DNA of 64,000 nt, taken from contig NZ_JAHWYN010000013.1 in assembly GCF_019351435.1 (NCBI RefSeq), positions 1 to 64,000 on the forward strand, in the 5' to 3' direction. Shown here in pieces: positions 15,205-30,296 of the stretch. The notes beneath the pieces are model-generated. The model was not told where the DNA came from and did no database searches. It saw only the letters and a list, made by a program, of their open reading frames with translations. Position numbers and translations under genes: made by a program. Source of the stretch: Flavobacterium taihuense (GTDB lineage: Bacteria > Bacteroidota > Bacteroidia > Flavobacteriales > Flavobacteriaceae). Positions within the stretch are counted from its first letter, which is position 1. Each line of letters starts with the position of its first letter.

Positions 15205-15693
15205 ATGTTTCAAAAAACAACCCTTATACTGCTTTTGTTGGCCATTGTCTCTTGTAAAAATACTGAAGCCAACGAGAAAGACCAAATAAAAAAGGCCAAC
15301 TGGTTACTAGGAAAATGGGAAACCAAAACTGCAGACGGAAATCTTTCTGAAAGTTGGAAACAAGTTAACGACAGCACTTTTCAAGGGGAATCCTTTTTTA
15401 TCAAAGGCAAGGACACTTTGCATTTTGAAACCATAACATTGCAACAAAAGGGAGAAGATTTATTCTACAACACCACCGTAAAAGGTCAAAACGAAAACAA
15501 AGCTGTTGCCTTTAAAATGACTATTGGAACAGAAAAACAATTGATTTTTGAAAACCCGAAACACGACTATCCTCAAAAAATCACTTATACGCTAATTACT
15601 AAAGATAGCCTTGTAGCAGCCATTTCTGGAGTTCAACTCGGGAAACCAAGCTCCGAAAAGTTCGGAATGAAAAAAGATTCAATAACAAAATAA
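15205..15693 (+). CDS. Lipoprotein of the DUF6265 type
   Basis: 162 residues with a lipoprotein signal peptide: a hydrophobic run LILLLLAIVSC with the lipobox Cys at residue 17, followed by KN, which in Bacteroidota does not block export. The mature part begins with the W-L-x-G-x-W-E pattern and carries SWKQVNDSTFQGESFF and FENPKHDYPQKITY, typical of the DUF6265 beta-barrel family, which is lipocalin-like in outline. No enzyme role is known. It is probably anchored in the outer membrane facing the periplasm. It is a single-gene unit, closed by the terminator at 15716-15747. Confidence 0.75.
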   Translation: MFQKTTLILLLLAIVSCKNTEANEKDQIKKANWLLGKWETKTADGNLSESWKQVNDSTFQGESFFIKGKDTLHFETITLQQKGEDLFYNTTVKGQNENKAVAFKMTIGTEKQLIFENPKHDYPQKITYTLITKDSLVAAISGVQLGKPSSEKFGMKKDSITK

Positions 15694-15783: not shown

Positions 15784-15864
15784 TTATTTATAATTAATCT
15801 AAATAAGTGTTGCTAAATTAAGTATAATTTTTACATTTGCCTTATTCTTATTTATTCTAAATAA
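15784..15864 (+). promoter_or_regulatory. Iron-type promoter with two palindromic operators (P1)
   Basis: The promoter is TTG at 15810-15812, a 19-bp spacer, and TACATTTG at 15832-15839. It is bracketed by two palindromes: distal TTATTTA-N9-TAAATAA (15784-15806) and proximal TTATTTA-TTC-TAAATAA (15848-15864), the latter placed over the transcription start region. The same layout recurs at 19552-19626 and 25275-25352, always before iron-uptake or redox genes. A Fur- or DtxR-type repressor site is the natural reading, by inference. Confidence 0.75.
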
Positions 15865-15899: not shown

Positions 15900-18269
15900 A
15901 TGAAATATTTGAATCAACAATTACCCCTATTTAAATTGTTCTTATGTCTATTTATTCTTTCAACAGCGACCTCTTTTGCCCAAAACAAAGGAAGCCTAAA
16001 AGGAACCGTTCAAACCAGTGACAATAAACCCGCAGAAGGAGTTTCGGTTACTGTAGAAGAATTAAACAGGACAACCATTGCCGACAATAACGGTGTTTTT
16101 ACAATCAAAAGCATACCTGCTGGTAGCTATACAATAATAGTAACACTAGTTGGTAACAATGATGTCCAACAAAACGTAACAATTGCGGATGGTGAAACTG
16201 CAACCTTAGATATCAATCTTTCTTTATCCAATAATGAATTGAACCAAGTGGTTATTTTAAGTAACAAAAGTGTTTTTAAAACCAATCGTGTTTCTTCTTC
16301 ACTTCGTTTACAGTCTCCTATTATAGAAATCCCACAAAACATTCAGGTCGTAACAGGAAAACTAATTCAAGATCAACAAATCAATAACATGCTTGAAGGT
16401 GTAACCCGCAACGTGAGTGGTGCTACAAGAGTAGAACATTGGGATAATTATGCTAATATTACGATGAGAGGCAGTCAGGTTGCTGCTTTTAGAAATGGTA
16501 TGAACGTGAGTACAACTTGGGGACCGTTGACAGAAGACATGAGTATGGTAGAGCGCATAGAATTTGTAAAAGGTCCTGCAGGATTTATGTTATCAAACGG
16601 AAATCCAAGTGGTTTTTATAATGTGGTAACTAAAAAACCAAGTGGAAGAAACAAAGGAGAGGCAAGTTTGTCTTTGGGTAGTTATGGTATGTATAGAGGT
16701 ACATTGGATTTGGACGGAAAATTGACTAAAGACGGAAAACTTTTGTATCGTTTCAATGCAATGGGAGAAAAGAAAGACAGTTACCGCGATTTTGACTTTA
16801 ATGACCGTTATACTATTGCACCAGTATTAAAATATTTATTTTCAGACAAAACTTCTGCAACACTTGAATATACACAACAATTTTCGAAAGTAAATGCAAT
16901 TGGTAGTAACTATGTTTATGCCAAAAATGGTTACGAAGAATTACCAAGAAGCTTTACTACATCAGAGAAAGAATTAGATCCTACACAAATGCTGGAAAGA
17001 AGTCTTTTGGGGATTTTTGAACATAGTCTAAATGACAAATGGAAAATTACTGCCCAAGGTTCATACTTAAATTACGAACAAGAAGGAATGTCTTTGTGGC
17101 CAGCAGGTTTTGATCCTGCAAATGACGCTATTCTTAAAAGAGCTGGCGGAAACTGGGATATTTTAGGAAAAATATATACTGGACAAACTTTTGTAAATGG
17201 ACAGGCTCAAACCGGATCTGTTTCCCATAAGATACTTTCTGGATTCGATATGAGTGATAAAACCTATTATCATGACTGGTTACAATCTTTCACATTACCT
17301 GATTTAGATATTTATAATCCTGTACATGGCATAACAGCTTCGCCAAAATTTGACAGAAGCAAAGACATGGAAGACAGAGGTGTAAAATATTATAATAATT
17401 ATAAAGGTTTTTATGCACAGGATGAATTAGGATTCTTAGATAATTCACTTCGCTTAACATTGGCAGGAAGATATACTATTCTAAAAGCTGGTGATGCATA
17501 TTCTGGTGGTTCAAAAAATGAAAAATTCACACCGCGTATTGGATTGAGCTATTCTATTGACAAAAATACATCTGCTTATTTTGTGAGAGATGAATCTTTT
17601 ACAGAAAATTATGGGAGTGATTGGCAAGGAAAAAGTTTTAATCCTCAAACGGGAACAAATTTAGAATTAGGGTTCAAAAGAGACTGGTTAAACGGAAAAT
17701 GGAATTCTACGCTTGCAGCCTATCAAATTACCACAGACAATGTCCTTACATTAGATGCTGAACATTCTACGTCAGCTAAGCAATATAGCAAAGAAAATGG
17801 TCAGCAAAAAGTAAAAGGTTTTGAAGTTGACATTAGAGGAGAAATCTTTAAAAACTTAGATATTGTTGTAAACTATGCTTTTACAGAAGGAAAAACTACT
17901 AAAGATACCGACCCAAATATGGTAGGAAATCAAATTCCAGGAAGTACAAAACATATTCAAAACACTTGGTTAAATTATAAAGTAGATAATGGATTACTAA
18001 ACGGATTGGGGCTTTCATTAGGATATCAATATCAAGTAGATAGAGCTCCATGGTATATTTCACCTGATAACACTACTGCACTACCTGACTATTTCCGTTT
18101 GGATGGAGGTGTATCTTATCAAATCAAGAAAGTATACATAAACCTTATTGTTAATAACATACTTAATAAGTACTTGTATTCTGGAGGATATTATAGTTAT
18201 ACCGATATGTATTACTGGCAAGCGGAAGCAGGTACTAATGCAAGGGTAACTGTAAGTTATAAATTCTAA
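15900..18269 (+). CDS. TonB-dependent siderophore receptor with a carboxypeptidase-like N-terminal domain
   Basis: 789 residues. A signal peptide at 1-27 ends ...TSFAQ. Residues about 32-112 form the carboxypeptidase-regulatory-like beta-sandwich common in Bacteroidota receptors (GSLKGTV, GVFTIKSIPAGSY). The plug follows, with IEIPQNIQVVTGKLIQDQ, then MVERIEFVKGPAGFMLSNGNPSGFYNVVTKKP, characteristic of the FhuA/FhuE-type siderophore class. The 22-strand barrel ends in an aromatic residue (VTVSYKF), as needed for outer-membrane assembly. It should import a ferric siderophore with TonB energy; the ligand cannot be told from sequence. It stands behind the palindrome-flanked promoter P1 and is followed by a hairpin and a PepSY protein, so iron repression is likely. 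Confidence 0.93.
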   Translation: MKYLNQQLPLFKLFLCLFILSTATSFAQNKGSLKGTVQTSDNKPAEGVSVTVEELNRTTIADNNGVFTIKSIPAGSYTIIVTLVGNNDVQQNVTIADGETATLDINLSLSNNELNQVVILSNKSVFKTNRVSSSLRLQSPIIEIPQNIQVVTGKLIQDQQINNMLEGVTRNVSGATRVEHWDNYANITMRGSQVAAFRNGMNVSTTWGPLTEDMSMVERIEFVKGPAGFMLSNGNPSGFYNVVTKKPSGRNKGEASLSLGSYGMYRGTLDLDGKLTKDGKLLYRFNAMGEKKDSYRDFDFNDRYTIAPVLKYLFSDKTSATLEYTQQFSKVNAIGSNYVYAKNGYEELPRSFTTSEKELDPTQMLERSLLGIFEHSLNDKWKITAQGSYLNYEQEGMSLWPAGFDPANDAILKRAGGNWDILGKIYTGQTFVNGQAQTGSVSHKILSGFDMSDKTYYHDWLQSFTLPDLDIYNPVHGITASPKFDRSKDMEDRGVKYYNNYKGFYAQDELGFLDNSLRLTLAGRYTILKAGDAYSGGSKNEKFTPRIGLSYSIDKNTSAYFVRDESFTENYGSDWQGKSFNPQTGTNLELGFKRDWLNGKWNSTLAAYQITTDNVLTLDAEHSTSAKQYSKENGQQKVKGFEVDIRGEIFKNLDIVVNYAFTEGKTTKDTDPNMVGNQIPGSTKHIQNTWLNYKVDNGLLNGLGLSLGYQYQVDRAPWYISPDNTTALPDYFRLDGGVSYQIKKVYINLIVNNILNKYLYSGGYYSYTDMYYWQAEAGTNARVTVSYKF

Positions 18270-18330: not shown

Positions 18331-19464
18331 ATGAAAAATAATAGCTTAAAAAAACGGATTGGGCAACTACATTTATGGCTCGGATTGTCTTCGGGTATAA
18401 TTGTATTTATTATTGCCATTACGGGCTGTTTGTATACTTTTCAGGAAGAAATACAAAATAGTACCGAAGAATACCGTTTTGTTGAAAAAGAAAATAAACC
18501 TTTCCTCCCTCCTTCTCAATTGGAAGAAATTGCAAAAAAGGAACTACCGGGCAAAGCTCTTCATGCCATCAAATACAATGGAACCGAAAAATCAGCGGAA
18601 GCTATATTCTTCCATTATGAACCGACTTATTATTATATCGTTTATCTAAATCCCTATTCAGGAAAAGTGATAGAAACGGCAAATATGGACGAAGGATTTT
18701 TTAGATTTATCCTGGATGGCCATTTCTACCTTTGGCTGCCACCTGAAATTGGACAGCCTGTCGTTGCCTCGTTCACATTAGTTTTTCTCACACTCTTGCT
18801 CTCCGGATTGTATCTTTGGTATCCCCGAAATAAAAATGCGACCAAACAACGCTTTAGTTTCAAATGGAAAAAAGAAACAAAGTGGAAACGCAAAAACTAT
18901 GATTTGCATAATATCACTGGTTTTTACGTGCTTCTGATTGCCCTTATTTTTGCTATTACAGGTTTAGTTTGGGGTTTCCAATGGTTTGCTTACTCGTATT
19001 ACACAATAACTGGCGGGGAAAAATCATTGATTTATGAAGATCCAATTTCAAAGAAAACCAATACAACTATACAAAAACCTTTGGATAAAATTTGGGCATT
19101 AATGCAAAAAGAATACCCGACGGCAAAATCCATAGAAGTGCATCCGCCTGAAAATGACAGCACCGCAATTGCTGCCAATGCCACTTCGAAAGAAGGAACC
19201 TTTTGGAAAACAGATTACCGTTATTTTGACCAATACACTTTGGAAGAAAAAGAGGTAAAACACATTTACGGAAAATATAAAGATGCTTCAACTTCAGATA
19301 AATTAATGCGAATGAATTACGATATTCACACTGGAGCTGTATTTGGATTAGCCGGAAAAATATTTGCTTTTTTAATTAGCTTGCTTATCGCGAGCCTTCC
19401 TATATCTGGATTTTACATTTGGTGGGGACGAAATAAGAAAAATAAAAATACTGCAGTTACTTAA
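18331..19464 (+). CDS. PepSY-associated transmembrane protein
   Basis: 377 residues of the PepSY_TM family. The start KKRIGQLHLWLGLSSGIIVFIIAITG is the classic first helix with its conserved His. Further helices are near 140-165, 190-215 (YDLHNITGFYVLLIALIFAITG) and 340-365 (FLISLLIASLPISGFYIWW). PepSY sections in the periplasm lie between helices (residues about 50-135 and 230-330). Conserved histidines in helices 1, 3 and elsewhere suggest haem binding and electron transfer to the periplasm, as proposed for ferrisiderophore reduction. It is probably the partner of the receptor at 15900-18269. Family known; the reductase role is inferred. Confidence 0.88.
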   Translation: MKNNSLKKRIGQLHLWLGLSSGIIVFIIAITGCLYTFQEEIQNSTEEYRFVEKENKPFLPPSQLEEIAKKELPGKALHAIKYNGTEKSAEAIFFHYEPTYYYIVYLNPYSGKVIETANMDEGFFRFILDGHFYLWLPPEIGQPVVASFTLVFLTLLLSGLYLWYPRNKNATKQRFSFKWKKETKWKRKNYDLHNITGFYVLLIALIFAITGLVWGFQWFAYSYYTITGGEKSLIYEDPISKKTNTTIQKPLDKIWALMQKEYPTAKSIEVHPPENDSTAIAANATSKEGTFWKTDYRYFDQYTLEEKEVKHIYGKYKDASTSDKLMRMNYDIHTGAVFGLAGKIFAFLISLLIASLPISGFYIWWGRNKKNKNTAVT

Positions 19465-19551
19465 CTTAAATCATTACGCCATACTGTAACAACCAATAAA
19501 CTAATTAATTTTTTCACAGATTTAGAACTTTTATTTTAAACCTTTCATTCG

Positions 19552-19626
19552 TTTTTAAGTCTAAAAATTAATTGCTTTTACACAATTTATTTTTACATTT
19601 GCGCTATTTTTATTTATTCTAAATAA
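19552..19626 (+). promoter_or_regulatory. Iron-type promoter with two palindromic operators (P2)
   Basis: TTG at 19572-19574, a 19-bp spacer and TACATTTG at 19594-19601. The distal box TTTTTA-AGTC-TAAAAA spans 19552-19567. The proximal box TTATTTA-TTC-TAAATAA (19610-19626) is identical to the proximal box of P1. It drives the ankyrin-DUF2271-reductase-ApbE operon. Confidence 0.75.
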
Positions 19627-19723
19627 TATCTGCTTTTTAAGTAAAACATGTTTCTTAAAACTTGATTAATTAAAGAATTAACGTATCGAATCTATTCTAC
19701 ATTACTATACCTATATTAAACTT

Positions 19724-21241
19724 ATGAAAAATATATTTTCAATATCTTTTATTTTAGTTGCCTCCTTATTCGTCAGTGCACAACAAAAAAATACGCTTTT
19801 AGAGCAATCTTTTTGGAAAACAGCCCCAGATGTAGCATCAGTTCAAGCTGAAATTGCAAAAGGCAACAACCCTTCGGCATCCAATGATAGATCCTTTGAT
19901 GCTGTTGTTATCGCTATTAATAACGACGCACCAAATGCGACTATCAAATTTTTATTGGAACAACCAGGTAACGGTGTAAATAAGCCTACTCATGACAACC
20001 GTATTTATCTGCACTGGGCCGCTGGAAAAGGAAATCAAGAAATTGTAGAATACCTTATTGCCAAAGGTTCAGATCTCAATTTAGAAGACAGTCACGGAGC
20101 ATTACCAATTACCGCTGCCGCTAGTAACGGTGTTACCAATACTGCAGTTTATGAAGCTTTTTTTAAAGCTGGCGTAGATCCAAAGAAAAAATACACCAAT
20201 GAAACCAATTTGTTACTAATGGCCATTCCGTTTGACAAAAACCTTGCGCTTACCGACTATTTCGTTACTAAAGGAATGTCCCTTAAAGATATTGATAAAG
20301 ACGGAAGCACGGCTTTTGATTATGCAACAAAAACCGGAAACCTAACTTTGTTGAAATCTATTTTAGAAAAAGGGGTAAAACCAACCGACAACGCCTTACT
20401 CATTGCTGCTCAAGGTTCTCGAAGAGATGCCAACACATTGGAAACCTACAAATACTTGGTTGAAGATTTAAAACTGAAACCCACAGCAACCAATAGTGAG
20501 GGACAAAATGCACTTCATTTTCTAGTTACAAAACCAAAACAAACCGAAATCATAAGTTACTTCCTCTCAAAAGGCGTAGATGCAAATAAATCAGACAACG
20601 ATGGTAACACACCATTGATAGTTGCCGCTTCGGGCAAAGAATCCTATGGAACTGTAGAGCAATTAATCCCCCTTACAAAAAACATAAACGCACAAAACAA
20701 AAAAGGAGAATCTGCTTTGACTAAAGCCATACAGTCTGGCACTAATGAAACGGCAACTCTTCTTTTAGAAAAAGGAGCTGATGCAAAAGTACTTGATAAA
20801 GACGAAAATAATTTAGGCTTTTATCTAATTGATTCCTACCGACCTCAAATGGGAATGGGTCGCGGACCAGAAACTGGCAATGCACCAAAACAAGATCCTT
20901 TTGATACCAAAACAAAATTACTTCAGGATAAAGGATTAAACTTATCCACTCCTCAAAAAGACGGAAATACACTTTATCATTTCGCTGTTGCCAAAAACGA
21001 TTTAACTTTGCTGAAGAAAATTGCAGATTTAAACATAGATATAAATGCAAAAAACAAAGACGGCTTAACCGCTTTACACAAAGCAGCCATGATTTCTAAA
21101 GATGACACTTTATTGAAATACCTACTCTCCATTGGTGCCAAAAAAGAAATTGCAACCGATTTTGACGAAAGCCCTTATGCTTTGGCAAAAGAAAATGAGT
21201 CACTTACAAAAAATAAAACAGATTTAGAATTTTTAAAATAA
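19724..21241 (+). CDS. Exported ankyrin-repeat protein
   Basis: 505 residues with a cleavable signal peptide (ISFILVASLFVSA, cut near residue 19), so it works in the periplasm or on the outer side of the cell. Most of the mature chain is ankyrin repeats: NRIYLHWAAGKGNQEIVEYLIAKG at about 90-113, then further units such as GQNALHFLV, DGNTPLIVAAS, GESALTKAI, DGNTLYHFAV and DGLTALHKAA. Ankyrin repeats bind protein partners. As first gene of an iron-regulated operon that encodes a flavinylated-type protein, its reductase and its flavin transferase, a scaffold role for the redox chain is reasonable but unproven. It is 4 bp from the next gene. Confidence 0.9.
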   Translation: MKNIFSISFILVASLFVSAQQKNTLLEQSFWKTAPDVASVQAEIAKGNNPSASNDRSFDAVVIAINNDAPNATIKFLLEQPGNGVNKPTHDNRIYLHWAAGKGNQEIVEYLIAKGSDLNLEDSHGALPITAAASNGVTNTAVYEAFFKAGVDPKKKYTNETNLLLMAIPFDKNLALTDYFVTKGMSLKDIDKDGSTAFDYATKTGNLTLLKSILEKGVKPTDNALLIAAQGSRRDANTLETYKYLVEDLKLKPTATNSEGQNALHFLVTKPKQTEIISYFLSKGVDANKSDNDGNTPLIVAASGKESYGTVEQLIPLTKNINAQNKKGESALTKAIQSGTNETATLLLEKGADAKVLDKDENNLGFYLIDSYRPQMGMGRGPETGNAPKQDPFDTKTKLLQDKGLNLSTPQKDGNTLYHFAVAKNDLTLLKKIADLNIDINAKNKDGLTALHKAAMISKDDTLLKYLLSIGAKKEIATDFDESPYALAKENESLTKNKTDLEFLK

Positions 21242-21245
21242 TACT

Positions 21246-21725
21246 ATGAAGTCAATACTAAAAATAAGCCTGGTTGCATTAATATACCTTTTCTCTTTTG
21301 AAGCCTCAGCGCAAACCAGTAAATACAAATGCATGCTGCAAATGTCCAACTATGTGGGAGAAGGGGCTTATATTGTAGTTTCGCTCGTAAATGCTAAAGG
21401 GGATTATGACAAAACCCTATATGTAATGGGTGATAATAAAAAATGGTATAAAACACTCAAAGAATGGCACAAATTCTATTCTAAAAAACCAACGGATATC
21501 AGTGCAAAAACAGGAGCTTCGGTTACTGGTGGAGATCGTAGCATCACGACATTGGAAATTGAAGATTCTAAAATTAACAAAGGATATAAATTAAGATTTG
21601 AAACAGCTGTAGAAGACAATAAATACTACACCACAGATTTAGAAATACCCTTGACTACCGAAGGAATTGCTGCAAAGACCGAAGGTAAAGGCTACATCCG
21701 CTACGTAAGATTAAATAAACTGTAA
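21246..21725 (+). CDS. DUF2271 protein with an FMN-attachment-like motif
   Basis: 159 residues with a signal peptide (ALIYLFSFEASAQ). The mature part is a DUF2271-type beta-sandwich ending in Y-I-R-Y-V-R-L. Residues 89-94 read TGASVT. This fits the (S/T)GA(T/S)-x-T motif at which ApbE transfers FMN to NqrC and RnfG, with Thr94 (codon 21525-21527) as expected acceptor. ApbE is encoded in the same operon, and a PepSY-flavodoxin reductase lies between them. I infer a periplasmic flavoprotein that receives electrons from that reductase and perhaps reduces ferric siderophores. The motif is seen; the modification and role are inferred. Confidence 0.85.
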   Translation: MKSILKISLVALIYLFSFEASAQTSKYKCMLQMSNYVGEGAYIVVSLVNAKGDYDKTLYVMGDNKKWYKTLKEWHKFYSKKPTDISAKTGASVTGGDRSITTLEIEDSKINKGYKLRFETAVEDNKYYTTDLEIPLTTEGIAAKTEGKGYIRYVRLNKL

Positions 21726-21740
21726 ATTTTAAACTTTTAT

Positions 21741-21795
21741 ATCTGCGAAAATCTACAAAATCTGCGTACTTGTATTTTACTTAGATTTCGCAGAT
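21741..21795. repeat. Inverted short-word repeat inside the redox operon
   Basis: ATCTGCGAAAATCTA (21741-21755) pairs with TAGATTTCGCAGAT (21782-21795), with one base difference, and the loop contains another AATCTGCG word. A T run follows, so it may also act as a partial terminator between the DUF2271 and reductase genes. Confidence 0.65.
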
Positions 21796-21833
21796 TTTTT
21801 TAAAACAAATAATTTCCAAAATAAATTACATCA

Positions 21834-24011
21834 ATGACTCTTTCTTTTTGGCGTTATTCACACTTGGCTTTAGCTTTGTTTTCATCCTTGTTTTTAATAT
21901 TAGCATCCGTAACCGGTACCATACTTGCCGTAGATGCTATTCAGGAGAAAACACTATCCTATAAAGTTGAAAATTTTGAAAAAATAAAACTTGGAGAAAC
22001 CTTACCGATACTGCGCAAAACCTATCCAGAAATAACCCAATTGAGTGTTGACCACAATCAATTTGTAACGCTTCAAGCTATAGATCAAGACGATAATGAT
22101 ATTAATGCCTATATTGACCCAAGAACTGGCACAATATTAGGCACAACCATCAAGAAAAGTGAATTTATCCAATGGATTACGGCACTGCATCGTTCTTTAT
22201 TCCTCAAAGAAACTGGGCGGTTTATTGTCGGATTTATTTCGTTTCTGTTAGCTCTTATTTCTATTTCGGGATTTGCCTTACTACTTAACCGACAAAGAAC
22301 TATTCGCGGGTTTTTCTCTAAAGTCATAAAAGAAAACTTTGCCCAATATTATCATATTTTTTTAGGACGATTATCACTTATTCCTATTCTAATACTTGCC
22401 CTTTCGGGAACATATTTAACCTTGGAAAAGTTTAATTTTTTTGTCGAAAAAAAAGAAACAAACTCAGAGTTCAAAACTAGTGTTTTAGAAAATGTCCCAG
22501 CGTTCAATAGTATCCTTCTGGCTGATGTTCAAAAAATCGAATTTCCTTTTTCAGACGACCCCGAAGAATATTACATTATTGAATTGAAAGACCGAGAAAT
22601 CGAAGTCAATCAAATTTCTGGGGCTGTGATGAGCGAAAAACGATTCCCAACCACAACACTCTTGTCGAATTTGAGCCTTGATTTACATACGGGTAGAGCC
22701 AGTGTTTTATGGGCTATACTATTAGGAATAGCGAGTTTAAATATTCTCTTTTTTATCTACTCGGGTTTTGCGATGACCTTAAAACGAAGAACGAGTCGCA
22801 TTAAAAACAAATTCAATGCCAAAGAAAGCAAATTCATTTTGTTGGTAGGTTCTGAGAACGGCAGTACACTTCGATTTGCCAATGCCATTCAGAAACAATT
22901 GCTGGCTTATGGAGAAAAAGCATTTATTGCGGAATTAAATACTTATTCGAATTATCCAAATGCGGAACATCTTCTCCTATTTACCTCAACACATGGATTG
23001 GGAGACGCTCCTTCGAATGCGAGTAAATTTACAGAACTGTTTAACAAAACCGAACAAAAGCAAAAAATCAAAGTTTCGGTGATCGGATTTGGTTCAAAAG
23101 CCTATCCTAATTTTTGCGGCTATGCACGTGAAATTGACAGTTTATTGGCTAAACAAATTTGGACCGAACGCATTTTGGAATTACAAACAATAAACGACAA
23201 ATCGGCTGTAGAATTTGTAAGCTGGGTGAAATTATGGAGTGCCAAAACTGGAATTCCACTCTCTACTACCCCGTCAATATACAATGATGTTCCTAAAAAT
23301 TTGGAAAAATTAGAGGTCATAGACAAAACGACTATTGCAAATAACGGATTTACTTTTTTGCTGACACTTAGAACAAATAGAAACACCAAATTTAATTCAG
23401 GTGATTTATTGGCTATTTATCCAGCAAATGACCCGCGAGAGCGCCTCTACTCCATCGGAAATAGCAATGGCAATATACAATTGGCGATAAAACTGCATCC
23501 TTCTGGCTTAGGTTCTGGTTATTTATACAATCTCGAAGCCGGGCAAGTAATAAAAGCCAGAATCATTAAGAACCCTACTTTTCATTTTCCAAAAAAAGCA
23601 CCTAAAGTGGCATTAATTTCAAACGGTACCGGTATCGCACCGTTTTTAGGAATGATTGATCAAAACAACAAAAAAATAGAAATTCATTTGTATTCTGGCT
23701 TCCGAAGAGCAACCGAAACCGTTTTAGGCTATAAAAAATTCGCCAATAAAATGATTGAAAAACAGCAACTCAAAAGTTTTAATTTGGCTTTATCCCGAGA
23801 AGAAGAACATCAATATGTAATGGATTTAATCAGACGAGATGCGCAATTTTTCATCGATTTGCTGATGAATGGTGGTGTTGTAATGATTTGCGGTTCGCTT
23901 GCTATGCAAAAGGATGTGGAATCTGTACTTGATGAATTGTGTTTAGCCAAATCAACTACTGGAATTGCATATTATAAATCAAATGGACAAGTTCTATCGG
24001 ACTGTTATTAG
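21834..24011 (+). CDS. PepSY-flavodoxin-FAD/NADPH reductase fusion
   Basis: 725 residues. The N-terminal 315 residues are a PepSY_TM module with helices near 8-32, 120-145, 175-200 and 290-315 and periplasmic PepSY parts between. A flavodoxin-like domain begins near 333 (FILLVGSENGSTLRFANAI) and binds FMN. A cytochrome-P450-reductase-type FAD/NADPH unit follows (RERLYSIGNSNG near 533, then SNGTGIAPFLGMI and a C-terminal MICGSLAMQKDV). This is the architecture of sulfite-reductase-like flavoproteins joined to a membrane electron conduit, moving electrons from cytosolic NADPH through FAD and FMN to the periplasm. Neighbours DUF2271 and ApbE supply a flavinylated acceptor, so the operon forms a complete outward electron path. 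Confidence 0.9.
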   Translation: MTLSFWRYSHLALALFSSLFLILASVTGTILAVDAIQEKTLSYKVENFEKIKLGETLPILRKTYPEITQLSVDHNQFVTLQAIDQDDNDINAYIDPRTGTILGTTIKKSEFIQWITALHRSLFLKETGRFIVGFISFLLALISISGFALLLNRQRTIRGFFSKVIKENFAQYYHIFLGRLSLIPILILALSGTYLTLEKFNFFVEKKETNSEFKTSVLENVPAFNSILLADVQKIEFPFSDDPEEYYIIELKDREIEVNQISGAVMSEKRFPTTTLLSNLSLDLHTGRASVLWAILLGIASLNILFFIYSGFAMTLKRRTSRIKNKFNAKESKFILLVGSENGSTLRFANAIQKQLLAYGEKAFIAELNTYSNYPNAEHLLLFTSTHGLGDAPSNASKFTELFNKTEQKQKIKVSVIGFGSKAYPNFCGYAREIDSLLAKQIWTERILELQTINDKSAVEFVSWVKLWSAKTGIPLSTTPSIYNDVPKNLEKLEVIDKTTIANNGFTFLLTLRTNRNTKFNSGDLLAIYPANDPRERLYSIGNSNGNIQLAIKLHPSGLGSGYLYNLEAGQVIKARIIKNPTFHFPKKAPKVALISNGTGIAPFLGMIDQNNKKIEIHLYSGFRRATETVLGYKKFANKMIEKQQLKSFNLALSREEEHQYVMDLIRRDAQFFIDLLMNGGVVMICGSLAMQKDVESVLDELCLAKSTTGIAYYKSNGQVLSDCY

Positions 24012-24048
24012 TTTTAAAAAATATTGCCACAGATTTAAAACAAACTTT

Positions 24049-25050
24049 ATGTCGGTCAAACACCAATTTCTATTTCTTTTTTTAATCCTTTGTTCCTTCA
24101 CAAGCAATAGCCAAGTCTTACGTAAAAGAACCACCTTACTCATGGGCGGGCGATTCGACATTACGATTGTGGCCAAAGATTCGCTTACGGCAGAACAAAA
24201 TATAGACGAAGTTATTACCGAAATCACCCGAATTGAATATTTAATATCCGATTGGAAACCAACCACCCAAATATCCGAAGTAAATCAAAATGCGGGAATT
24301 CGTCCTGTAAAAGTAGATCGAGAAGTTTTTGAATTAACACAAAGAGCCATTCATTTTTCTGAAATTACAAACGGAGGCTTCGACATCAGCTTTGCAGCAA
24401 TGGACAGAATCTGGAAATTTGATGGCTCGATGACCGAAATACCATCGGCGGAAGCCATAAAAAAATCGGTAGAAAAAGTAGGCTACAAAAATATAGTTTT
24501 AGACAGTGTTCAATCCACCATTTTCCTTAAACAGAAAGGCATGAAAATTGGTTTTGGCGCATTGGGCGAAGGTTATGCCACTGATAAGTGCCGAAAAATG
24601 ATGCGAGCCAAAGGGATCGAAGCCGGAATAATAAACGGCTCTGGCGACATGAGTACTTGGGGGAAACAGCCTAACGGAAAAGATTGGAATATTGGCATTA
24701 CAAATCCCTTTGACAACGAGAAACTAATTGCCGTGGTCCCAATAAGCAATGGAGCTGTTACGACTTCTGGCAGTTATGAGAAATTTGTGGTTCTTGATGG
24801 GAAACGCTATTCGCACATTATTAATCCTGCTACAGGTTATCCTGCTACAGGATTATGCAGCGTGACTGTCTTTGGCCCCAATGCAGAAACAGCCAACGGC
24901 TTGAGCACTTCGCTAATGGTATTAGGAAAAAAAGCCGGTCTAGAATTACTCAACAATTATCCAAATTATAATTGCTTAATGATTACTGACAATGGAAAAG
25001 TCGTGAAATCGAAAAACTTCCGAATCAAAAAATTAAAGTCCCATCTTTAG
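24049..25050 (+). CDS. apbE: FAD:protein FMN transferase (ApbE)
   Basis: 333 residues from the ATG at 24049. An upstream in-frame start at 23965 would overlap the previous gene and place 28 residues before the signal peptide, so it is rejected. The export signal is FLFLFLILCSFTSNSQ. Family landmarks: LMGGRFDI near the start, SDWKPTTQISEVN, DISFAAMDRIW, IGFGALGEGYATD, GIINGSGDMSTWG, AVTTSGSYE and HIINPATGYPA, the last two lining the FAD and Mg2+ site. It splits FAD and attaches FMN to a Thr in a (S/T)GA-x-x-T motif of exported proteins. The only motif carrier seen here is the DUF2271 protein two genes upstream. Confidence 0.95.
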   Translation: MSVKHQFLFLFLILCSFTSNSQVLRKRTTLLMGGRFDITIVAKDSLTAEQNIDEVITEITRIEYLISDWKPTTQISEVNQNAGIRPVKVDREVFELTQRAIHFSEITNGGFDISFAAMDRIWKFDGSMTEIPSAEAIKKSVEKVGYKNIVLDSVQSTIFLKQKGMKIGFGALGEGYATDKCRKMMRAKGIEAGIINGSGDMSTWGKQPNGKDWNIGITNPFDNEKLIAVVPISNGAVTTSGSYEKFVVLDGKRYSHIINPATGYPATGLCSVTVFGPNAETANGLSTSLMVLGKKAGLELLNNYPNYNCLMITDNGKVVKSKNFRIKKLKSHL

Positions 25051-25357
25051 TTTCGCAAAATTTCAGCTCTAAAAAAAACCAGACTAAATTTAAAGACAAA
25101 AAAGAATCCGCAAACAAGATTTGTAAAGCTATTATTAGGGAGAATATTTCATTCCTTTAAAGCAAATAGCAGGCTGTTTTTTACTTTTTAATATTTTCCG
25201 AGGCCATTTCACGCACAATAACCATATTAGAAATCTGAATTTCAATTAGTTAAATATTTATTAAATTATTATTAATATTTAGTCTAAATAAGCTTGCCGA
25301 ATAGGAAATGAGTTTTTATATTTGCATTGTTATTTTTAATTATTCCAAATAAACAAT
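25051..25357 (+). other. Gene-free leader of the second siderophore receptor
   Basis: 307 bp with no ORF. The right third holds promoter P3. The left part (25051-25250) shows no clear terminator for the ApbE operon, so read-through into the receptor gene is possible. Confidence 0.5.
25275..25352 (+). promoter_or_regulatory. Iron-type promoter with two palindromic operators (P3)
   Basis: TTG at 25294-25296, a 20-bp spacer, and TATATTTG at 25317-25324. The distal box ATATTTA-GTC-TAAATAA (25275-25291) abuts the -33 element. The proximal box TTAATTA-TTC-CAAATAA (25336-25352) ends only 5 bp before the start codon, so a bound regulator would cover the ribosome-binding region as well as the transcription start. 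Confidence 0.72.
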
Positions 25358-27610
25358 ATGAAATATATTTTACTCCCCTTAGCATTCTTATTATTTTGTT
25401 TCAATAGTCAAGCCCAAGAAACAGCAAGTAATACAACCAATTCAAATGACAAAGAGATATATTACTTCTCATCAGACACCATCAAATCAGCTAATGATAC
25501 GGTAAAGAAGAGAAGAGGTGAAGTTTTAAAAGAAGTTATTGTAACAGCAAACAAGCAACCAAAGCCAGTTACAGCTTTACGTTCTGGATTAAAACCAATG
25601 GACACACCACAAAGCGTGCAGGTAATTGGATCTGAAATTATCGAACAACAACAATCCATTCGCTTGAGTGAAGTCCTAAAAAATGCCAATGGTGTTTATG
25701 TAGGTTCAGCACGTGGTGGAGCGCAGGAGTCTTTCTTCTCAAGAGGCTATGATATGTCTGCCAACAATATGTTTAAAAATGGTTTCCGCTATAATGCAGG
25801 TTCTATTCCTGAGGTTTCTTCTTTAGAGAGAGTAGAATTTTTAAAAGGCGGTGCAGCATTGTTATATGGAAATGTAGCTCCGGGAGGAATCTTAAATTTA
25901 GTTACTAAAACGCCTTCTTTCAAAAGTGGTGGGGAAGTATCTATGCAAATGGGAAGTTACTCTTTCTACAAACCCTCTGTAGATTTTTATGGTCCATTAA
26001 ATAAGTCTATAGCCTATAGATTTACAGGTTCTTATGAAAACTCTGAAAGTTTTAGAGATGTTGTAAAAAGAGAACGTATTTATGTTAACCCATCTTTACT
26101 TTTCAATGTTACTGATAAAACTCAAATTACACTACAAGGAGATTTTTTAAGTGATGATTGGACTCCAGATTTTGGAACAGGAATTATCGGAACAGAAATT
26201 GTTGATGTACCACGCAGCAACTTTTATGGGGCACTTTGGTCAAATGGTAAAACAAAATCAGCTAGTGCTTCAGCATTATTAAACCACGATATCAACAAAA
26301 ACTGGAAACTTAATTTCAATAGCTCTTTCCAAACTTACGATAGACAATCAAAATCGACAGCTCAATTAGCAACCGTAAAAGATAATGGAGACTGGACTAG
26401 ACCATTGGTTCAAAATAAAAATTTAGAACAAATACTTGGTGACCAATTGAGTTTACAAGGAAACTTTAATACTGGATCAATAAAACACCAAATATTTACC
26501 GGTATGGATTTTGAAAATTCATTTACTACCGCCTATACCTATGTGTTTACTCCAACCAATTATGACACTATCAATCTTTATACTTTTGATCCTTCAACTC
26601 AAAGAAACGATATTCCAAACTCAAGAAATACGCAAATAGTAAAAACTGACACCAACCGTTTTGGAGTTTATTTTCAAGATTTGATTTCGGTTACAGAGCA
26701 AATTAAAGTTTTGGCGGGTATCCGTTGGTCCTGGCAAGAAGCTGAAGTCAGTACTTACAAAGAAACAGCTACAGGAATCGGAAATCCAGAAACTGCAAAA
26801 CCAACAATTACTCCAAAACGTAAAGATCAGGCTTTCTCTCCAAAAATAGGATTAGTATATCAACCAACAAAAGACATGTCTTTATTTGCAAGCTACTCTA
26901 ACTCGTTTACTCCAAATACTGGCACAACTGTTGATTTACAACCTATTGAGGCATCTGTCATTGACCAATATGAAGCGGGGATCAAAAAAGATTTTTGGAG
27001 AGGAATTTTGAGCACAAACATTACTGTTTACCAAATCACCAACAGTAATTTAGCTCAAACAGCCTTACAAGCTGATGGAACTCCTTATAATGATACAAGT
27101 ATAAAAGTCTTAAGTGGAGCAACAAAGAGTAAAGGTATTGAAGTTGATGTGACTGCAAGACCAATCAACGGATTGAACATCGTTGCTGGATATAGTTATA
27201 ATGATATGCGTTATACCAAAACTTCAGGAAAAAACGGTAGTTTTATCGAAGGAGATCGCGTTGTAAGAACTCCAGCAAATACAGCTAACTTAAGCTTTTT
27301 CTATACATTGCAAACTGGAGTACTAAAAGGGGTGTCTCTTGGAGCAATAGGAAACTATATTGGAGACCGTCTTGGTGGTTGGAACAACCAATATGACAAA
27401 ACCAAACCAGATGGAATTTGGCACAGAGAAATCCCATTAGAAGGATATACAACCATTGACGTATCTGCAGGTTATAGTTGGAAAAAAATCTCAATTCTTT
27501 GCAAACTGTCAAATATTACAAATGAATTAAATTACACGGTACACGAAAATTACAGCGTAAATCCTATTGCTCCACGTCAAGTATTGGTAAGTTTAAAATA
27601 TCAATTATAA
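25358..27610 (+). CDS. TonB-dependent siderophore receptor
   Basis: 750 residues. The signal peptide ends ...NSQAQ near 20. It lacks the carboxypeptidase-like N-terminal domain of the receptor at 15900-18269. A TonB-box-like LKEVIVTAN lies near 56-65, followed by the plug with MDTPQSVQVIGSEIIEQQQ and LERVEFLKGGAALLYGNVAPGGILNLVTK. The barrel ends ...VLVSLKYQL. It belongs to the siderophore class; the ligand is unknown. It has its own copy of the double-palindrome promoter and a strong terminator, so it is a separate unit of the same putative iron regulon. Two receptors of different build suggest uptake of at least two siderophores. Confidence 0.93.
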   Translation: MKYILLPLAFLLFCFNSQAQETASNTTNSNDKEIYYFSSDTIKSANDTVKKRRGEVLKEVIVTANKQPKPVTALRSGLKPMDTPQSVQVIGSEIIEQQQSIRLSEVLKNANGVYVGSARGGAQESFFSRGYDMSANNMFKNGFRYNAGSIPEVSSLERVEFLKGGAALLYGNVAPGGILNLVTKTPSFKSGGEVSMQMGSYSFYKPSVDFYGPLNKSIAYRFTGSYENSESFRDVVKRERIYVNPSLLFNVTDKTQITLQGDFLSDDWTPDFGTGIIGTEIVDVPRSNFYGALWSNGKTKSASASALLNHDINKNWKLNFNSSFQTYDRQSKSTAQLATVKDNGDWTRPLVQNKNLEQILGDQLSLQGNFNTGSIKHQIFTGMDFENSFTTAYTYVFTPTNYDTINLYTFDPSTQRNDIPNSRNTQIVKTDTNRFGVYFQDLISVTEQIKVLAGIRWSWQEAEVSTYKETATGIGNPETAKPTITPKRKDQAFSPKIGLVYQPTKDMSLFASYSNSFTPNTGTTVDLQPIEASVIDQYEAGIKKDFWRGILSTNITVYQITNSNLAQTALQADGTPYNDTSIKVLSGATKSKGIEVDVTARPINGLNIVAGYSYNDMRYTKTSGKNGSFIEGDRVVRTPANTANLSFFYTLQTGVLKGVSLGAIGNYIGDRLGGWNNQYDKTKPDGIWHREIPLEGYTTIDVSAGYSWKKISILCKLSNITNELNYTVHENYSVNPIAPRQVLVSLKYQL

Positions 27611-29165: not shown

Positions 29166-30296
29166 ATGACTAAAATTACATATTACTTAGGCGCAGGTGC
29201 AAGTTATAATTCGTGTCCAATACTTGAAAATCAAGCCGAAATGATGATAAAAATTGCTGAATTTGAAATAAAAGAGTCAACAACCATCAGTGACGGTTAT
29301 GGTGGGCTAACTAGTTCAATTTATAATTTTATCTCAGAAGAACTAAAGGACTTACCTGATAACAATAAAATTAAAATATTGTGGCATATTGGGTATTTTG
29401 GGTATAAAGCAAAAGAATATAACACTATTGACACTTACGCCAGAAAGTTGTATTTGAATGACGAAATAGATGAATTAAATCTATTAAAAATGTGTGTTAG
29501 TGTTTTCTTCGATCTTTGGGAAAACTTTCATGAAAATAGATACAAGGAATTATCAGATTCTAAATACATAAAGATAGATAATAGATATAAATCTATTTTT
29601 TCAATTCTGCTTAATAAAGAAAATGGGATTAAATTAAATAACAATTTTAAGTTTATAACTTGGAATTATGATCTTCAGATTGAAAGTGCATTTAAAATGT
29701 TTTTAAAAAATGAAGAAGACAATGATTTCAATAGAATTAATGACCATTTTAAATTTAAAGAAAACCAAAATGATTCAGATATAAATGATATTTTTCATCT
29801 AAACGGACATAGAGGTTTTTTTACAGATAAAAATAATAATGAAGAAAAAGAATTCATTATAAAGATTTCAAACCAATTTGACGACTATTGGCATAATATT
29901 GAATGGTTATTTGAATCGACCGAAAAAGGTTCTGCAAATTTCAACAACTTCATAAAATATGCTTGGGAACATAATTTAAAAGACAATTTCTTTAATAAAA
30001 TCTCTAAAGTAATGAATGAAACAGAAGTTCTAATAATTATTGGGTATTCATTCCCAGCTTTCAATAGAGAAATAGATCAATTTTTATTTTCTAAAATACT
30101 TCCTAATAAAATTAAAAAAATAATATACCAAGATCCGAATGGAAGCATACAATTAATCGAAAATTTATTTGAAATTCCTGATCTTATAAAAAAGAAAATT
30201 GAAATTATATCTGAAACAAAATCACTCACTCAATTTTATTTACCTAATAATTACTTTATTACTCAAAAAAAGAAACCTGGATTAGTTTGGAATTAA
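29166..30296 (+). CDS. SIR2-like domain protein, possible defence gene
   Basis: 376 residues with no signal peptide. It begins with the nucleotide-binding GAGAS of SIR2-like proteins (residues 9-13). N167-Y168-D169 in ITWNYD matches the family (T)NYD site. HLNGH at 211-215 stands where most SIR2 proteins have LHG, so the usual catalytic His may be replaced by Asn213, or the adjacent His used instead. IIGYSFPAFNREID near 292-305 is the family's late G-(Y/F)-S-x-x-D pattern. Proteins of this class are NAD+ hydrolases in several anti-phage systems; here no partner gene (Argonaute, HerA, DSR-type helicase) is adjacent. The coding sequence is clearly more A/T-rich than its neighbours, consistent with transfer. 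Family moderately sure; defence role inferred. Confidence 0.75.
   Translation: MTKITYYLGAGASYNSCPILENQAEMMIKIAEFEIKESTTISDGYGGLTSSIYNFISEELKDLPDNNKIKILWHIGYFGYKAKEYNTIDTYARKLYLNDEIDELNLLKMCVSVFFDLWENFHENRYKELSDSKYIKIDNRYKSIFSILLNKENGIKLNNNFKFITWNYDLQIESAFKMFLKNEEDNDFNRINDHFKFKENQNDSDINDIFHLNGHRGFFTDKNNNEEKEFIIKISNQFDDYWHNIEWLFESTEKGSANFNNFIKYAWEHNLKDNFFNKISKVMNETEVLIIIGYSFPAFNREIDQFLFSKILPNKIKKIIYQDPNGSIQLIENLFEIPDLIKKKIEIISETKSLTQFYLPNNYFITQKKKPGLVWN

Follow-up and report, generated by a model that had tools for sequence, protein, structure and literature searches.

Within the 64,000-nucleotide (nt) stretch of Flavobacterium taihuense DNA analysed here (the window), four successive genes encode an exported ankyrin-repeat protein, an exported DUF2271 protein, a reductase that joins PepSY_TM to flavodoxin and FAD/NAD(P) domains, and an exported ApbE-family protein. 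Together they probably constitute an iron-starvation-induced assimilatory ferric reductase operon with a complete electron chain from the cytosol to ferric chelates in the periplasm, and the exported ankyrin protein is a near-constant, dedicated partner of DUF2271. The proposal builds on the gene content and order of the operon, its conservation, an operator shared with the adjoining receptor genes, and conserved histidines and motifs in its products.

The flavinylation, electron flow, siderophore target and ankyrin role that we infer would be arranged as follows. Under iron-replete conditions, a Fur-like repressor would occupy the operator near the transcription start. On starvation, the two receptors would import ferric chelates into the periplasm, and the reductase would pass electrons from cytosolic NAD(P)H to flavin adenine dinucleotide (FAD) and on to flavin mononucleotide (FMN); these would cross the inner membrane via two hemes held by four invariant histidines and reach FMN that the co-encoded ApbE had attached covalently to DUF2271. 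DUF2271 would then reduce the ferric chelate, releasing Fe(II) for uptake. Its dedicated partner would be the exported ankyrin solenoid, which most likely offers DUF2271, the reductase or the carrier a scaffold or a platform to dock on. PepSY-like flavinylation clusters have already been implicated in iron reduction, and DUF2271 is reported to be flavinylated by ApbE (Meheust et al., 2021, PMC8238504); at a Caulobacter locus, transposon insertions lowered fitness in the chelator EDTA. The original prediction, made from the letters alone, had traced a path of this kind without the heme step, the second PepSY protein at 18331 or the precedent of the PepSY-like flavinylation systems, and had given the ankyrin protein no part in it.

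A profile scan covering ten proteins of the window recovered the four genes in the predicted order on one strand, and both flanking receptors, read earlier as siderophore receptors, exceeded the TIGR01783 cut-off (Table 1). The ankyrin and DUF2271 genes are separated by 4 bp. That the four genes form a single operon is likely, but the 108-bp gap ahead of the reductase gene holds a strong hairpin and may bring internal attenuation. Signal-peptide-like leaders were recognized by eye on the ankyrin, DUF2271 and ApbE proteins. The long open reading frame (ORF) of ApbE opens at a TTG (23965) within the reductase gene; as its leader begins at ATG 24049, the latter is the likelier start. Ratios of nonsynonymous to synonymous substitution (dN/dS) against four relatives were 0.045-0.147 across the four genes and 0.045-0.089 for ApbE alone (crude NG86 estimates at dS 0.9-1.8), values that point to strong purifying selection on all four.

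Table 1. Features of the ferric reductase locus, by position in the window
Feature	Position	Strand	Details
Fur-type operator copy TATTTATAATTAATCTAAATA, upstream of receptor 1	15785-15805	+	1 mismatch to operator pattern; 17/19 bases of Riemerella Fur box
Second operator copy TATTCTTATTTATTCTAAATA, before receptor 1	15843-15863	+	15/19 bases of Riemerella Fur box; 3 nt behind TACATTTG (15832-15839)
TonB-dependent siderophore-type receptor 1 (Plug, barrel)	15900-18269	+	TIGR01783 253 bits, cut-off 223.5
Stand-alone PepSY_TM protein, 377 amino acids (aa)	18331-19464	+	PF03929 4.9e-66
TACATTTG, promoter -7-like element	19594-19601	+	Sequence
Operon operator TATTTTTATTTATTCTAAATA	19605-19625	+	16/19 bases of Riemerella Fur box; 3 nt behind TACATTTG
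Exported ankyrin-repeat protein, 505 aa	19724-21241	+	Full-length solenoid (profile scan, predicted model)
Exported DUF2271 protein	21246-21725	+	PF10029, 7e-37; proposed FMN site SAKTGAS, residues 86-92, acceptor Ser92
RNA hairpin between DUF2271 and reductase genes	21741-21795	+	z -3.79; 0/200 shuffles equally stable
Reductase, PepSY_TM + Flavodoxin_1 + FAD_binding_6 + NAD_binding_1	21834-24011	+	PF03929 1.7e-33
Exported ApbE-family protein, 333 aa	24049-25050	+	PF02424, 3.7e-81; Asn283 in metal-ligand Asp place; Ser240, His256, Thr287 kept
Operator copy TATTTTTAATTATTCCAAATA, before receptor 2	25331-25351	+	16/19 bases of Riemerella Fur box; 6 nt behind TATATTTG (25317-25324)
TonB-dependent siderophore-type receptor 2	25358-27610	+	TIGR01783 281.5 bits, cut-off 223.5

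The association of the ankyrin protein with DUF2271 was evident in two collections that overlap in organisms and are not independent. Within a family sample of 120 genomes (120 genera as drawn), ankyrin matches of at least 200 bits occurred in 40, DUF2271 matches over the cut-off in 44 and both in 39; a DUF2271 match lay within 500 bp behind the ankyrin gene on the same strand at 40 of 42 ankyrin loci. The second collection comprised the best 80 Bacteroidota loci among the matches listed in a reductase-alignment scan. DUF2271 was present at 73 of these, with an ankyrin gene at 72 of the 73 and the strict order ankyrin-DUF2271-reductase at 71; four of the remaining seven loci start at a contig end, and three (L291, L301 and L330) do not. 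The ankyrin model is a confident solenoid (mean pLDDT 93) apart from the leader and residues 371-390. Those residues (window about 20834-20893) form a low-confidence insert, rich in Met and Gly and missing in most other genera, that is a possible metal or partner contact. Fold comparison furnished no functional clue, the matches listed being ankyrin, designed-repeat and other ankyrin-repeat proteins. Possible analogues include the periplasmic AnkB of Pseudomonas and the ankyrin protein Cj1386 of Campylobacter. The word ankyrin is absent from the main text of Meheust et al. (2021), and our literature searches found no paper joining DUF2271 and ankyrin, and no report of the ankyrin partner or of the ApbE/DUF2271 lineage switch described below.

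The putative iron-type operator of the original prediction was borne out: TATTTTTATTTATTCTAAATA agrees with the Fur box of Riemerella anatipestifer, ATTTAGAATTATTCTAAAT, as published with electrophoretic mobility shift assays on four promoters, and the receptor promoters carry the same kind of site. The pattern TATTTNNANTTATTCTAAATA, allowing up to two mismatches, had 22 matches in the 4.7-Mb genome, with a few places entering twice, once per strand, versus 7 for its reversed control, and four of the six sites with no more than one mismatch lie in this locus (15785, 15843, 19605 and 25331). The fifth lies next to the gene of a class-V aminotransferase (PF00266), whose start codon is 26 nt from where the site begins and whose product we read as cysteine-desulfurase-like; the sixth (L397:1530-1730) lies directly behind an ORF (901-1416) that appears ferritin-like, before a short Cys- and Lys-rich frame opening at TTG. 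A looser palindrome gave 88 sites versus 38 in its control on each strand, so weak operator-like sites are mostly background. A 23-mer form of the operator (up to five mismatches) precedes the ankyrin gene at 40 of 48 loci of the same genus, compared with 27 of 468 control regions upstream of neighbouring genes; it does so at 4 of 41 loci in other genera, in which that gene is seldom the first. The elements ahead of three of the operators (15843, 19605 and 25331) follow TAnnTTTG, which we take to be the Bacteroidota promoter -7 element. The distribution of the operator sites argues that the operator of the operon is real.

Iron control is further supported by published induction of an apparent orthologue. 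In R. anatipestifer CH-1 under low iron, log2 rises were recorded for B739_0173 (receptor, 3.31), 0174 (hypothetical, 3.64), 0175 ('Ankyrin', 2.41), 0176 ('Predicted periplasmic protein', 3.06) and 0177 ('Nitric oxide synthase', 1.05); ApbE does not appear in that iron-limited list (PMC5429918). Pfam describes DUF2271 as 'Predicted periplasmic protein', and three loci of our set (L275, L281 and L293, the receptor of the last by Pfam) show the gene order receptor, lipoprotein, ankyrin, DUF2271, reductase, ApbE. In strain RA-YM, tags 04481 (receptor), 04491, 04496, 04501 (nitric oxide synthase) and 04506 (ApbE) are given as up under iron restriction, with 04486 not listed (PMC5609570). The run B739_0173-0177 is apparently the orthologous operon, induced at iron limitation, but in the portions of the source papers drawn on here it is not read as a flavinylation or reductase system.

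The reductase carries both halves of a diflavin enzyme of the cytochrome P450 reductase (CPR) type, a flavodoxin and an FAD/NADP module. Comparison of its model recovered CPR- and nitric oxide synthase (NOS)-like diflavin folds at Z 27-28, with a NOS reductase module heading the tied list (Z 28.0, 241 residues). In the membrane part, His10, His119, His174 and His285 are invariant among 11 aligned reductases, each in or beside one of four transmembrane-like segments. These histidines, together with the published diheme arrangement of FoxB, predict two hemes across the membrane, the positions being read from the 11-member alignment.

The DUF2271 site and its transferase depart from the canonical form. 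ApbE enzymes are described as recognizing D-x-x-[S/T]-G-A-[S/T], of which the Asp has been called strictly conserved; Asp to Ala is reported to have had little effect, and Ser in place of Thr to have caused a 10-55% loss (PMC12052999). The DUF2271 protein of the window has the [S/T]GA[S/T] core as TGAS (residues 89-92), but SAKTGAS has no Asp at the first position. Similarly, ApbE retains the catalytic Ser240 and His256, as do all 47 linked copies (one fusion included), but has Asn283 for the Asp that serves with T284 as metal ligand in E. coli Ftp (D280) and is counted in the catalytic triad of the Vibrio cholerae enzyme (Asp285; PMC12052999), an equivalence drawn from alignment to Protein Data Bank (PDB) chains and from spacing. 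The original prediction's electron path is supported in its NAD(P)H-FAD/FMN-PepSY chain, exported DUF2271 and exported ApbE, but its flavin-transfer step is not canonical.

Both departures follow lineage. All 47 sites read in the window's genus end in GAS; Asp is absent in 46 of these loci and apbE lies alongside in 45. At 43 loci of other genera, Asp is always present (D[AG]xxGAT in 36, GET in 5, GPT in 2) and a linked apbE was found at none, the fusion locus L108 lying outside the 43. In the 80-locus set, 40 loci have a Ser acceptor, 37 of them without Asp and 35 with a linked apbE; 33 have a Thr acceptor, none with a linked apbE. Asn replaces the metal-ligand Asp in 35/35 linked ApbEs of this set and in 46/46 of the genus set, the window's included; Asp is kept in all 31 other copies, namely the second ApbE of the genome and the best 30 family-search matches. 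Among the best 30 ApbE matches in 395 genomes of the phylum, 22 were Asn-type, 21 of them in genomes with DUF2271, and 8 were Asp-type, one in such a genome. Four Ser-type genomes without a linked apbE were checked, and three had an Asn-type copy elsewhere, one of these having a contig that ends just behind the reductase, whereas the fourth, Dyadobacter beijingensis, had none; the two Thr-type genomes checked had Asp-type copies only. On a reductase tree built from 80 rows by a quick method, two changes account for the Ser/Thr label and four for apbE linkage, leaving two independent pairs, neither informative. With so few changes and no informative pair, the association represents essentially one event, and the Ser/Asn switch is best regarded as a lineage marker of about one origin, not as proof of co-adaptation. 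The linked-apbE clade spans Flavobacteriaceae, Weeksellaceae, Sphingobacteriaceae, Spirosomataceae and Hymenobacteraceae, with apbE on the opposite strand at 10/35 loci.

A general rule that an Asp-less Ser acceptor needs an Asn-type ApbE was rejected on several counts. In Dyadobacter beijingensis, DUF2271 is Ser-type and all three ApbE matches are Asp-type; at the Brumimicrobium locus L336, the acceptor is Ser (DGITGAS) and apbE is not linked; genome G530 has an Asn-type ApbE (L381) and no DUF2271 match; and the Asp-type second ApbE adjoins DUF3570 with the Asp-less sites ASGAS and SSGAS. The region of that second ApbE (L218 in G000:C56, 7232-10941), which also encodes thioredoxin-like and Rieske proteins, appears from its gene content to be another flavinylation cluster. 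No FMN_bind protein, as another ApbE substrate, was found in the genome at E 0.001. Elsewhere, an ApbE-DUF2271 fusion (L108:7412-8935) has Gly in place of the metal ligand and a site without Asp, with more fusions in L248, L249, L254 and L255, and the DUF2271 site reads GET instead of GA[ST] in L077, L089, L092, L095 and L107, as well as in 10/73 loci of the 80-locus set; GET could be either a tolerated variant or a loss of flavinylation.

By gene content, the operon belongs to, and would work like, the PepSY-like flavinylation systems, which are defined by a PF03929 or PF16357 protein in a flavinylation cluster; here the PF03929 reductase stands beside ApbE and DUF2271. The shared features are PepSY_TM, ApbE, DUF2271 and often an NAD-binding domain; some of those systems are also tied to iron and Fur (Meheust et al., 2021, PMC8238504), a connection that the Fur-box-like operator makes a putative one here. 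In contrast to those systems as described, PepSY is fused here to flavodoxin and FAD/NAD(P) domains, the ankyrin protein is near-constant, ApbE and its site are non-canonical, and DUF4198 was not found among the ten scanned window proteins. The ferrisiderophore reductases FoxB and HiuB likewise have a PepSY_TM membrane part with histidines for two hemes and lie beside a receptor, but in the portions of its literature used, the source of FoxB's electrons is described as not known, and neither a diflavin part nor a flavinylated partner comes up. By sequence, the PepSY protein encoded on its own at 18331 aligns with FoxB (structure 7abw) over two stretches (E 1.1e-13). In the XusABC xenosiderophore system of Bacteroides, a receptor, a lipoprotein and a PepSY inner-membrane reductase act together; a term search of its available text returned neither ankyrin nor flavin. 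(Further literature behind the FoxB, Caulobacter, XusABC, Ftp and Bordetella comparisons, as a group: PMC11334425, PMC12004947, PMC7190382, PMC12424826, PMC13142918, PMC10434189, PMC4767422, PMC12914433, PMC13038864.) The label 'XusB-like', first given to a neighbouring lipoprotein of about 450 residues, was dropped, as the protein matched nothing by sequence in Pfam, NCBIfam or the PDB. What sets the operon apart from the known PepSY-like systems is its ankyrin protein, a diflavin donor fused to the PepSY part, and an ApbE of the Asn type whose target site is altered as well.

Several observations weigh against an iron-induced ferric reductase. The RA-YM tags were altered in the wild type and the fur mutant alike, and the response there may therefore be Fur-independent; the same table also has ferritin, Dps and Suf genes up, under an ambiguous heading (PMC5609570). 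The match to the CH-1 run is by annotation and gene order. In the fold comparison of the reductase model, the matches listed were all to the diflavin part, the PepSY part being modelled less confidently. The hairpin, possibly an attenuator or a processing site that lowers reductase output, may uncouple the reductase from the ankyrin and DUF2271 proteins. Its 108-nt gap has a folding energy of -17.3 kcal/mol; within the genus, 30 of 47 such gaps are at least 40 nt long and 26 fold below -12 kcal/mol with differing sequences (energies without shuffles), versus gaps under 35 nt at 35/40 loci of other genera. A terminator scan of 19000-25600 gave three terminator-like sites, all on the minus strand, against a mean of 5.0 in shuffles; the loop of the hairpin exceeds the limit of that scan. 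Lastly, with no Asp in the motif and Asn in ApbE where a metal ligand is expected, flavinylation should not be assumed. It is conceivable, if rather doubtful, that this ApbE is no FMN transferase but an FAD pyrophosphatase or flavin carrier, and that DUF2271 of this clade is not covalently flavinylated. The lineage-wide Asn, the lost Asp with its Ser acceptor, and the switch in activity of E. coli Ftp upon a single residue change are in keeping with that account, but retention of Ser240, His256, Thr287 and the GA[S] acceptor, the low dN/dS of ApbE, the tracking of Ser-type DUF2271 by Asn-type ApbE copies across genomes, and the minor effect of the motif Asp to Ala change in a tested system (PMC12052999) all favour a working transferase. 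An equally tentative idea is that of a specialised pair, in which the Asn-type ApbE would flavinylate an Asp-less Ser site poorly served by the cell's other ApbE, and an obligate exported ankyrin solenoid would dock DUF2271 so that it stands between the arriving ferric chelate and the diheme PepSY reductase, giving a dedicated, insulated iron wire that spread as a module over several Bacteroidota families.

The other alternatives concern the electron acceptor. Receptors lie within four genes of the ankyrin-DUF2271-reductase trio at no fewer than 38/73 loci, with HmuY-like proteins and imelysin also among the neighbours elsewhere. In other genera, the trio has receptors next to it together with lipoproteins, HmuY-like or unnamed, so that its acceptor may instead be heme or another ferric chelate. 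That the trio serves heme iron instead of siderophore iron, either by reducing it or by feeding electrons to heme use, would fit the HmuY-like lipoproteins with a receptor beside it in many marine Flavobacteriaceae (19/73 loci; Pfam HmuY in 4/5 scanned neighbours) and the strong induction of HmuY by the same stimulus in Riemerella. It is unlikely for the window, where both receptors are over the siderophore-receptor cut-off, receptor 2 is far under the heme-receptor cut-off, receptor 1 has no listed heme-receptor match, and the scanned neighbours include no HmuY-like gene. Still less probable is respiratory or redox-stress electron export apart from iron uptake, with iron regulation merely reflecting the use of hemes. 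Flavinylation systems are reported to serve many redox partners, a scaffold-like ankyrin could hold another acceptor, and the neighbour labels came mostly from window proteins, a scope outside which oxidoreductase neighbours would fall; against this stand the operator common to the operon and the iron receptors, and the iron and heme uptake genes that neighbour the operon in many genera. Reduction of copper or another metal, as proposed for PepSY_TM proteins of copper systems, seems very improbable: such proteins follow copper receptors in Bordetella-type operons, but the promoter of the Bordetella copper operon is described as lacking a Fur site, and the operator here is Fur-box-like, with an apparent orthologue that responds to an iron chelator. 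Assimilatory reduction of ferric chelates remains the preferred reading.

Two further features of the window lie outside the operon. Upstream of receptor 1 is a gene for a DUF6265 protein (15205-15693), retained next to the locus in the close relatives L149, L158, L159, L165, L166, L170, L172, L173 and L176. At 29166-30296, a 376-aa ORF had no Pfam match; by eye it looks SIR2-like.

Much of the original prediction has been published for other bacteria, and the ankyrin unit and the altered transferase are the testable additions. In Bacteroidota, little is known about the final step by which iron is released, and the conserved ankyrin-DUF2271-reductase unit is a concrete candidate for it. The unit would also explain the iron-induced 'nitric oxide synthase' in the published Riemerella data. 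Should the Asn-type ApbE prove active, it would be a test of how much change flavinylation tolerates in its metal site and recognition motif, a point of relevance to flavin-tagging tools.

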